A DNA stretch of 64,000 bases from Gilliamella sp. wkB108 (GTDB lineage Bacteria; Pseudomonadota; Gammaproteobacteria; Enterobacterales; Orbaceae): assembly GCF_001690195.1 (NCBI RefSeq), contig NZ_LZGM01000073.1, forward strand, positions 1 through 64,000. Reading direction: 5' to 3'. The position numbers and the translations under genes are program-made. Below the pieces are notes generated by a model. The model searched no databases. It was not told the DNA's origin and saw only the letters and a list, made by a program, of their open reading frames with translations. Shown here in pieces: positions 52,867 through 53,759 of the stretch (position 1 is its first letter; the number at the start of each line of letters is the position of its first letter).

Positions 52867-52880
52867 TCACATATACTTTG

Positions 52881-52924
52881 ACCAATTCTATTGTTGCCAC
52901 ATTGGTTGGCACAATAGAATGGTT
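52881..52924. terminator. Hairpin between the GH3 gene and the repeat array
   Basis: TTCTATTGT-TGCCA pairs with TGGCACAATAGAA (one bulge) and outer ACCA/TGGT. No T run. It may end both the GH3 transcript and the tRNA transcript coming from the other side. Confidence 0.55.
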
Positions 52925-52937
52925 GAAAATGATGATA

Positions 52938-53446
52938 ATTATTCGGCACTTCCTGTGCCTCACTCCTTCGGAGCCAACTCTTTGAGTTGTTCAAATTCGT
53001 TCCAGACGAATTTGTCGAACGCTGGCGTTCTCATCGCTTTTTGTGTGATTAATTAAGTATTTTTGTTGCTTGAAGTATGAGGAAGAAAAGTGGTGGGTCG
53101 TGAGCTGATTATTCGGCACTTCCTGTGCCTCACTCCTTCGGAGCCAACTCTTCGAGTTGTTCAAATTCGTTCCAGACGAATTTGTCGAACGCTAGCGTTC
53201 TCATCGCTTTTTGTGTGATTAATTAAGTATTTTTGTTGCTTGAAGTATGGGGAAGAAAAGTGGTGGGTCGTGAGCTGATTATTCGGCACTTCCTGTGCCT
53301 CACTCCTTCGGAGCCAACTCTTCGAGTTGTTCAAATTCGTTCCAGACGAATTTGTCGAACGCTGGCGTTCTCATCGCTTTTTTGTGTGATTAATTAAGTA
53401 TTTTTGTTGCTTGAAGTATGAGGAAGAAAAGTGGTGGGTCGTGAGC
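52938..53446 (-). repeat. Three tandem 168-171-bp repeats carrying a tRNA-Lys 3' end
   Basis: Units at about 52938-53105, 53106-53275 and 53276-53446. Each ends, in plus orientation, with TGGTGGGTCGTGAGC, the complement of the last 15 nt of tRNA-Lys with CCA; the last unit runs into the real tRNA. Each unit has five hairpins in a row: GGCAC/GTGCC, CTCC/GGAG, CAACTC/GAGTTG, CAAATTCGT/ACGAATTTG and GAACG/CGTTC. The copies differ at four places: two in hairpin loops, one in the spacer and one T insertion. The tRNA operon would be transcribed into them. Confidence 0.9.
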
Positions 53447-53507
53447 GATTCGAACGCTCGACAAACGGATTAAAAGTCCGCTGCTCTACCGACTGAGCTA
53501 ACAACCC
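53432..53507 (-). tRNA. tRNA-Lys (anticodon TTT)
   Basis: A 76-nt tRNA with encoded CCA. Acceptor GGGTTGT/ACGACCC (one GU pair), anticodon arm GCGGACTTTTAATCCGT, T arm CGAGCGTTCGAATCGCTC. Last gene of the Val-Val-Lys operon, followed by the repeats. Confidence 0.97.
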
Positions 53508-53527: not shown

Positions 53528-53603
53528 TGGTGGGTGATACCGGGTTCGAACCAGTGACCCCCTCCTTGTAAGGGAGGTGCTCTCCCAACTGAGCTAATCA
53601 CCC
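53528..53603 (-). tRNA. tRNA-Val (anticodon TAC), second copy
   Basis: A 76-nt tRNA with encoded CCA. Acceptor GGGTGAT/ATCACCC, anticodon arm CCTCCCTTACAAGGAGG. Identical to the copy at 53639-53714. Confidence 0.97.
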
Positions 53604-53638: not shown

Positions 53639-53714
53639 TGGTGGGTGATACCGGGTTCGAACCAGTGACCCCCTCCTTGTAAGGGAGGTGCTCTCCCAAC
53701 TGAGCTAATCACCC
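53639..53714 (-). tRNA. tRNA-Val (anticodon TAC), first copy
   Basis: A 76-nt tRNA with encoded CCA, first gene of a Val-Val-Lys transcript. The arrangement corresponds to E. coli valUXY-lysV. Confidence 0.97.
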
Positions 53715-53731: not shown

Positions 53732-53759
53732 ATTATAAGGCACGGCTTAATTCAGTCAA
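53732..53759 (-). promoter_or_regulatory. Promoter of the Val-Val-Lys tRNA operon
   Basis: TTGACT and TATAAT on the minus strand, 16 bp apart, 18 bp before the first tRNA-Val. Strong stable-RNA type. Confidence 0.85.

Follow-up and report, generated by a model that had tools for sequence, protein, structure and literature searches.

Three tandem units follow tRNA-Lys on the minus strand of the window (the whole 64-kb stretch of Gilliamella DNA analyzed here), where a tRNA-Val, tRNA-Val, tRNA-Lys operon is equipped with a promoter-like site. With moderate confidence, we interpret this array as a tRNA-Lys variant of the rtT kind, in which the units are predicted to be cotranscribed and trimmed at each CCA. 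The units would be transcribed together with the Val-Val-Lys operon, and within each of them the copied tRNA end and a complementary strand would form the acceptor/T half of a tRNA, with a string of hairpins replacing the T-loop. Processing of tRNA 3' ends would then cut the precursor in the AU-rich spacers and trim it to each CCA, releasing RNAs of ∼165 to 171 nt that end like a tRNA, while copy number would rise and fall through recombination between the long direct repeats. The evidence comes from the layout and predicted folding of the array, from covariation in the hairpins, from reciprocal model matches with rtT, and from copies of RNA gene ends at related loci. rtT, which was first reported in 1991 (according to the reference list of PMC4986893) and which is little studied as far as our searches show, looks from these comparisons less like an Escherichia coli oddity than like one instance of a more widespread type of RNA.

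Layout and predicted folding of the tRNA-Lys array

Each unit has the same layout (Table 1): the CCA is followed by an AU-rich spacer, then by AGCGATGAG, a run of five short hairpins, and a tail of GAATAAT. In all three units, the hairpins are preceded by a short sequence that complements the T-stem of the neighboring tRNA. The 15-mer GCTCACGACCCACCA, which is the last 15 nt of tRNA-Lys, occurs at three sites in the 64 kb when both strands are searched: the tRNA itself (53432-53446), 53261-53275, and 53091-53105. It closes units 1 and 2, and none lies behind unit 3. Successive sites are 171 and 170 nt apart, which confirms the three tandem units and the periods given in the original prediction. 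The same prediction had assigned a tRNA-Lys 3' end to each unit; two extra copies are indeed present, and what had been counted as the third is the tRNA's own end.

Table 1 Coordinates of the tRNA operon and of the array behind tRNA-Lys in the window
Feature	Position	Strand	Basis or remark
Sigma-70-like promoter of tRNA operon, TTGACT-16-TATAAT	53732..53759	-	11/12 consensus positions; consensus match only
tRNA-Val(TAC), first	53639..53714	-	tRNA search
tRNA-Val(TAC), second	53528..53603	-	tRNA search
tRNA-Lys(TTT)	53432..53507	-	3' end 53432-53446 opens the array
Unit 1, 171 nt, predicted RNA with CCA end	53261..53431	-	
First extra tRNA-Lys 3'-end copy, GCTCACGACCCACCA	53261..53275	-	
Unit 1 hairpin core HP2-HP5	53277..53356	-	model R1, 97.0 bits
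Unit 1 hairpin 1, GAACGCCAGCGTTC	53357..53370	-	paired in minimum-energy fold
Unit 1 hairpin 2, CAAATTCGTCTGGAACGAATTTG	53332..53354	-	paired in minimum-energy fold
Unit 1 hairpin 3, CAACTCGAAGAGTTG	53315..53329	-	paired in minimum-energy fold
Unit 1 hairpin 4, GCTCCGAAGGAGT	53302..53314	-	forced fold and covariation; absent from minimum-energy fold
Unit 1 hairpin 5, GGCACAGGAAGTGCC	53285..53299	-	forced fold and covariation; absent from minimum-energy fold
Unit 1 outer helix, 5' strand AGCGAT	53373..53378	-	complements T-stem part of end copy; weak in window
Unit 1 outer helix, 3' strand ATCAGCT, bulged A	53273..53279	-	forced structure, 1.4 kcal/mol above minimum
Unit 2, 170 nt, CCA end	53091..53260	-	
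Second extra tRNA-Lys 3'-end copy	53091..53105	-	
Unit 2 hairpin core	53107..53186	-	model R1, 97.0 bits
Unit 3, 153 nt, without end copy behind	52938..53090	-	
Unit 3 hairpin core	52937..53016	-	model R1, 96.6 bits

The three units differ from one another by one base of the spacer (TTCCTC/TTCCCC), by the length of an A run (6 or 5 A), and in the loops of hairpin 1 (CCAG/CTAG) and hairpin 3 (GAA/AAA). As had been claimed, no difference falls in a hairpin stem. Relative to the tRNA, both extra end copies are directly preceded by an added A (AATCAGCTC versus AATCGCTC), and this base forms a bulge in the weak outer helix.

Folding of the 509-nt array gave a z score of -4.1, with 0 of 100 shuffles as good; for unit 1 alone, the z score was -2.1, and 7 of 200 shuffles were as good. 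The five hairpins attributed to each unit were recovered in part. All five are complementary in sequence in unit 1 and all form once the outer helix is forced, at +1.4 kcal/mol over the minimum; the minimum-energy fold itself contains hairpins 1 to 3, and hairpins 4 and 5 are not present as drawn. The outer helix of the window comprises 6 pairs with a bulge and lies outside the minimum-energy fold, and 11 of 34 foreign gene ends pair with unit 1 equally well or better. At a related locus (L021), a perfect outer helix of 6 pairs is predicted in the fold. Curated RNA families at or above their cutoffs gave no hits in the window except tRNA.

Between the array and a convergent glycosidase-like gene, a long inverted repeat without a T run is located at 52880-52925 (repeat and gene were both identified by eye). 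This repeat may end transcription from both sides; it is absent from the output of the scan that gave the promoter-like site.

The hairpin core and its relation to rtT

Thirteen cores, taken from tRNA loci, Rhs genes, a Proteus 23S-5S spacer, Salmonella ERIC elements, and a Klebsiella tRNA-Phe locus, have four hairpins and similar linkers in common. In this set, 97.8% of alignment cells are paired and double changes occur in 15 of 26 pairs, values that 0 of 500 shuffles reach. Among 121 distinct cores, 96.7% of cells are paired, all 26 pairs have double changes, and the covariation score is 0.627, compared to 0.184 for shuffled and at most 0.079 for slid alignments; this alignment was fitted to the model, and the samples favor high-scoring cores. 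Covariation had been named as a check in the original prediction, and both sets return conserved hairpins with strong compensatory change.

G-U pairs outnumber A-C pairs by 38 to 13 (p = 6e-4) with three weak pairs left out after inspection, and by 84 to 38 over all 26 pairs, where 46 of the 84 G-U pairs occur at one pair; the model R1 itself favors G-U. A reading of the core as a pure DNA palindrome is weakened by the 38-to-13 excess. Together with the near-constant orientation of cores relative to their genes (28/29; see below), the lean toward G-U was counted in favor of RNA over DNA.

Because only the best 18 to 23 candidates per genome were scored with R1, copy numbers and tallies from these surveys are lower bounds, and the E values of R1 are rough. 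At E ≤ 1e-4, R1 matched at least 95 of 247 genomes of the order (36 of 87 genera). At E ≤ 1e-6, it matched at least 88 of 229 genomes of the class (79 of 196 genera) and at least 43 of 200 genomes drawn from the phylum, 27 of them outside the class and mostly from one family. For Rfam RtT, 53 of 345 genomes of the order had a match above the cutoff, as did one of the 14 control genomes, that of E. coli. A core match was present in 143 of 5,426 E. coli genomes. One apparent member, a Haloarcula contig (L131), was rejected as a chance match to a DNA pattern, with no core, tRNA, or array in the stretch read.

The Rfam RtT model (RF00391) aligns over positions 1 to 130 of 130 with the three window units, at 22.4, 26.1, and 26.4 bits, and none of the three reaches the gathering score of 45 bits. 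Conversely, R1, which was built without rtT, recovers all three rtT repeats of E. coli as well as the spacer between tyrT and tyrV, at 24.6 to 27.4 bits (E values in L191 of 7.5e-6 to 4.8e-5 for 16 sources searched). The spacer match (L191, 1779-1862; 26.3 bits) is accompanied by a copy of the tRNA-Tyr end 175 nt after tyrT. E. coli rttR is annotated at 1287066-1287236, and position 1287066 is the last base of a tRNA-Tyr end copy, 178 nt after tyrV; since this annotated end lies at the copied CCA, it was counted in favor of CCA trimming.

The layout is likewise common to the two systems: tandem units of 170 to 178 nt stand behind a tRNA gene on the same strand, are bounded by copies of the tRNA 3' end, and contain a multihairpin core. 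The description of the array as rtT-like, tRNA linked, and tandem therefore holds. The original prediction had further called it independent of rtT, and this part is contradicted, as reciprocal matches between separately built models and a common layout point to one family. The window array is probably homologous to rtT; given its RtT scores below 45 bits, it is filed here as a variant of the rtT kind outside RF00391. It differs from rtT in having tRNA-Lys in place of tRNA-Tyr, in its short outer helix, and in the score of its HP2-HP5 core, which is 97 bits with a model derived from ERIC inserts, an rRNA spacer, and Rhs genes, against the lower range given above for E. coli rtT.

Two further systems resemble the array in part. 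Arrc20 and Arrc21 of Actinobacillus pleuropneumoniae, which are assigned to RtT, lie beside tRNA-Asn and tRNA-Lys and were seen on Northern blots (PMC4986893); this detection of related RNAs was counted in favor of the RNA reading. In the parts of that report available to us, they are placed upstream of the tRNA genes, and neither end copies nor a minihelix is described (PMC4986893). Aggregatibacter sRNA 22 (RF02902) matches the hairpin string over its full length at 26.0 to 30.5 bits, under its cutoff of 39.8. RU-3 of enterobacteria was considered as the same repeat and set aside, as its printed sequence (PMC2759123) is by eye a different repeat.

Copied RNA gene ends and the outer helix

In related genomes, the core is often flanked by a stable RNA gene on one side and, on the other, by a repeat of that gene's last 18 to 19 nt. 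We assembled 99 loci from best matches (30 by R1 in the order, 40 by RtT, and 29 by R1 in the class); several of these overlap one another, and some of the Gilliamella loci had been used in building the model. At 67 of the 99 (14, 39, and 14 for the three sources, respectively), the 400 nt upstream contain a same-strand tRNA or tmRNA gene. In 58 of these 67 linked loci (10, 36, and 12, respectively), a copy of the gene's own end is present, as judged by the last 14 nt of the gene with at most 2 mismatches; the remaining 9 have no end copy under this 14-nt test. The exact match is 18 or 19 nt long (tRNA positions 58/59 to 76) in 50 of the 58, and 15 nt in the window and its near kin.

End copies were found for Lys, Tyr, Pro, Ser, Arg, Gln, and Glu tRNAs and for tmRNA, as well as for Phe (reversed) and, once, for 5S rRNA, where the core stands between the 5S gene and a second 5S 3' end (L153, by eye). 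Three of four tmRNA loci carry a copy of the tmRNA 3' end (L147, L158, and L255), and the fourth (L233) is without one. At three loci of another class, the end copies are partial only. The core points in the direction of the gene in 28 of 29 linked loci chosen by R1, some of which supplied the model; the opposite orientation is seen at L256 (tRNA-Phe, chosen by R1) and at the Klebsiella tRNA-Phe locus L137. Units may also follow several genes of one locus: in G114 (L197), a unit is visible by eye after each of five tRNA-Lys genes in one operon, four of which pass the unit test, and L203 and L206 have units behind several tRNA-Arg genes.

For analysis of pairing, we collected 91 distinct units (Lys, 21; Tyr, 19; Pro, 12; Ser, 11; Arg, 11; Gln, 7; Glu, 3; tmRNA, 3; Phe, 2; and Ala, 2, the last being short) from loci picked for a core or RtT match or for tRNA-Lys. 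In many of these, the sequence leading up to the core is complementary to the end copy, covering its T-stem portion and some or all of its acceptor strand. The resulting outer helix has 10 pairs at Tyr (GGGGAAGGAT), 14 at Gln (TGGGGGGCAAGGGT), and 9 at Ser (GAGGGAGGG). The mean duplex energy is -14.1 kcal/mol with a unit's own end versus -10.4 kcal/mol with the ends of other genes, with the own end beating every foreign end in only 22 of the 91 units.

Folding was carried out for 84 of the 91 units, dropping four in L197, two at tRNA-Ala (84 to 86 nt), and one of 266 nt. The outer helix is closed in the unconstrained minimum-energy fold of 42 of the 84, compared to 12.9% with other genes' ends; when one unit was taken per distinct gene end, the helix is closed in 17 of 35, compared to 16.9%. 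Closure varies by gene: Ser, 11/11; Gln, 6/7; Tyr, 10/19; Lys, 7/17; Pro, 5/12; Glu, 1/3; tmRNA, 1/3; Arg, 1/10; and Phe, 0/2. In the predicted fold of L238, an acceptor/T minihelix is formed with the CCA free and the hairpins where the T-loop would be. According to these folding models, half of the units examined would use the end copy and a gene-specific strand to re-form an acceptor/T minihelix enclosing the hairpins.

Among 46 single units, the sequence past the CCA has only background likeness to the trailer in 21, the end copy being kept, and in 20 a likeness of at least 0.68 continues into the trailer or terminator. As the units were collected for having a copy, its presence in the 21 does not itself show selection; a copy kept beside background-like sequence is suggestive, and only suggestive, of a role at the RNA level.

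A broader proposal, which we put forward tentatively, is a class-wide RNA family that includes rtT and in which the acceptor/T minihelix of the upstream RNA gene (tRNA, tmRNA, or perhaps 5S) would be rebuilt around a mobile core. Such elements would be SINE-like, borrowing the 3' end of a host RNA together with its maturation machinery. If rtT is one member of a family spanning the Gammaproteobacteria, its function becomes testable by comparison and simple mutations, and the proposal, if true, raises the questions of why the end of a host RNA is copied, why it is paired again, and whether tRNA maturation enzymes make the RNAs. It would also link rtT, ERIC inserts, and rRNA-spacer hairpins, whose joint treatment was not met in the literature searched. 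Within that literature (titles and the beginnings of abstracts, with most subscription papers outside its scope), we found no mention of gene-specific end copies at many RNA genes, of a rebuilt minihelix, or of a core common to ERIC inserts and rRNA spacers.

Possible mobility, duplication, and decay

Outside the window's genome, the core is also found without tRNA ends: within ERIC elements, in an rRNA spacer, and in Rhs genes. HP2-HP5 is inserted in ERIC-like elements at L133, L134, L135, L136, L138, L148, and L151, which we take to be ERIC on the basis of the ERIC consensus; ERIC elements with inserts of ∼70 bp were reportedly described by Sharp in 1997. These inserts are the same hairpin core as in the array, and they differ from it in having no tRNA end, in not being tandem, and in sitting inside another repeat. 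In a Proteus mirabilis record, the core is found at six places, and the one examined (L132, 3851-4250) lies in the 23S-5S spacer. In Rhs/YD-repeat genes of Gilliamella (G016, G019, G009, and G017), it is present at two sites and in both orientations (L111, L112, and L117 by open frames; L110, L113 to L116, and L121 to L123 by common flanks), where it appears to break the reading frame and has been multiplied along with the Rhs copies. Copies spaced 1.3 to 3 kb apart in G016 and G019 had raised the idea of an integron-like cassette, which was rejected, as they sit in the repeated Rhs genes. At least 16 dispersed 86-nt cores outside the tRNA-Lys locus were found in the many contigs of G. bombicola (G022).

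Integrative elements that target tRNA genes settle at the 3' ends of such genes, and the hairpin string could likewise be a mobile DNA element that targets stable RNA genes at their 3' ends, the end copies being target or attachment duplications and any RNA incidental. We regard this explanation as rather unlikely. It draws on the ERIC, Proteus spacer, Rhs, and G. bombicola copies, on the end copy at the tRNA 3' end with its boundary at tRNA position 58/59 in most cases, on the tandem, head-to-tail arrays, and on the identical first unit at both tRNA-Lys loci of Lep-s35 (G028; L092 and L093). Against it, the core points with the gene in nearly all R1-chosen linked loci, the gene-specific complementary strand and the G-U excess fit selection on RNA, and a unit of ∼170 bp is too small for a recombinase. 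Moreover, duplications that run on into the trailer or terminator are unlike a fixed attachment core, and the empty orthologous site in Gilliamella (L062) is equally explained by loss between repeats. The CCA-processing model is likely, and we treat mobility of the core as a serious addition to it, not as an exclusive alternative.

To follow the unit across the genus Gilliamella, we inspected the sequence downstream of tRNA-Lys(TTT) at 64 loci, which come from 33 of its 35 genomes. Excluded were G031, which gave no match, and G015, whose gene is cut off by a contig end, along with genes truncated in this way in G005 and G024 and a third match of 84 to 86% that is present in most genomes. Using R1 at E ≤ 0.01, with limits chosen after the scores were seen, 16 loci have an intact core (at least 57 bits), 9 have a weak core only (20 to 49 bits), and 39 have none. 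Copies of the tRNA-Lys end (within 300 nt, at most 2 mismatches in 14) accompany 14 of the 16 intact cores, 1 of the 9 weak cores, and 0 of the 39 coreless loci. This distribution indicates that units and end copies are gained and lost together and that decay is common; with 9 weak and 39 coreless loci among the 64, the unit is dispensable.

Such decay and absence in many species, the empty site, and a copy number that varies from 3 in the window to 5 in G. apis (L059) are also what a neutral process would give, in which a segment made up of the tRNA 3' end, the trailer behind it, and a hairpin string close by was duplicated in tandem and copy number drifts by recombination. Neutral duplication would not be expected to yield one boundary and one layout at nine different kinds of RNA genes, or gene-specific pairing, and we consider it improbable. 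For the favored reading, an rtT-like RNA processed at its CCA ends, the decay in Gilliamella and the free-standing copies (ERIC, rRNA spacer, and Rhs) argue against an essential role. The putative RNA is most likely either a nonessential regulatory RNA or a tolerated passenger stabilized by its tRNA-like end.

The original prediction had offered a dispersed hairpin element as its alternative. That suggestion holds in part: it fits other genomes, including Gilliamella genomes in which dispersed copies were found by BLAST and R1. In the window's own genome, BLAST returned 17 unit matches and 16 core matches, and every one falls within the window array or at an end of contig C105 or C107; by BLAST, this is not the pattern of a genome-wide repeat unconnected to tRNA ends. 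When the best 18 of 564 candidates were scored with R1, 15 of 16 matches were listed, all in the same arrays, and remote copies may lie beyond these candidates. C105 carries, in order, a cpoB-like gene (by eye), tRNA-Lys, and an array running to the contig end, and C107 ends inside an array. The orthologous locus L062, in which no core was detected, can be aligned to the flanking sequence of each contig, so that C105 and C107 most likely represent the two sides of a single array behind the second tRNA-Lys; this array would hold at least 12 core copies (3 full ones on C105 and 9 on C107), a number that also enters the copy number variation cited for neutral duplication.

Rfam RtT additionally scores above its cutoff at two loci of this genome. 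On C49 (87764-87885; 50.2 bits), a tRNA-Pro precedes the match, and no intact copy of the tRNA-Pro end was found at this locus. On C16 (107510-107804), two units scoring 76.3 and 75.7 bits lie behind the tRNA-Pro of a His-Pro tRNA operon, and each of them holds a terminator-like hairpin and ends in a tRNA-Pro end.
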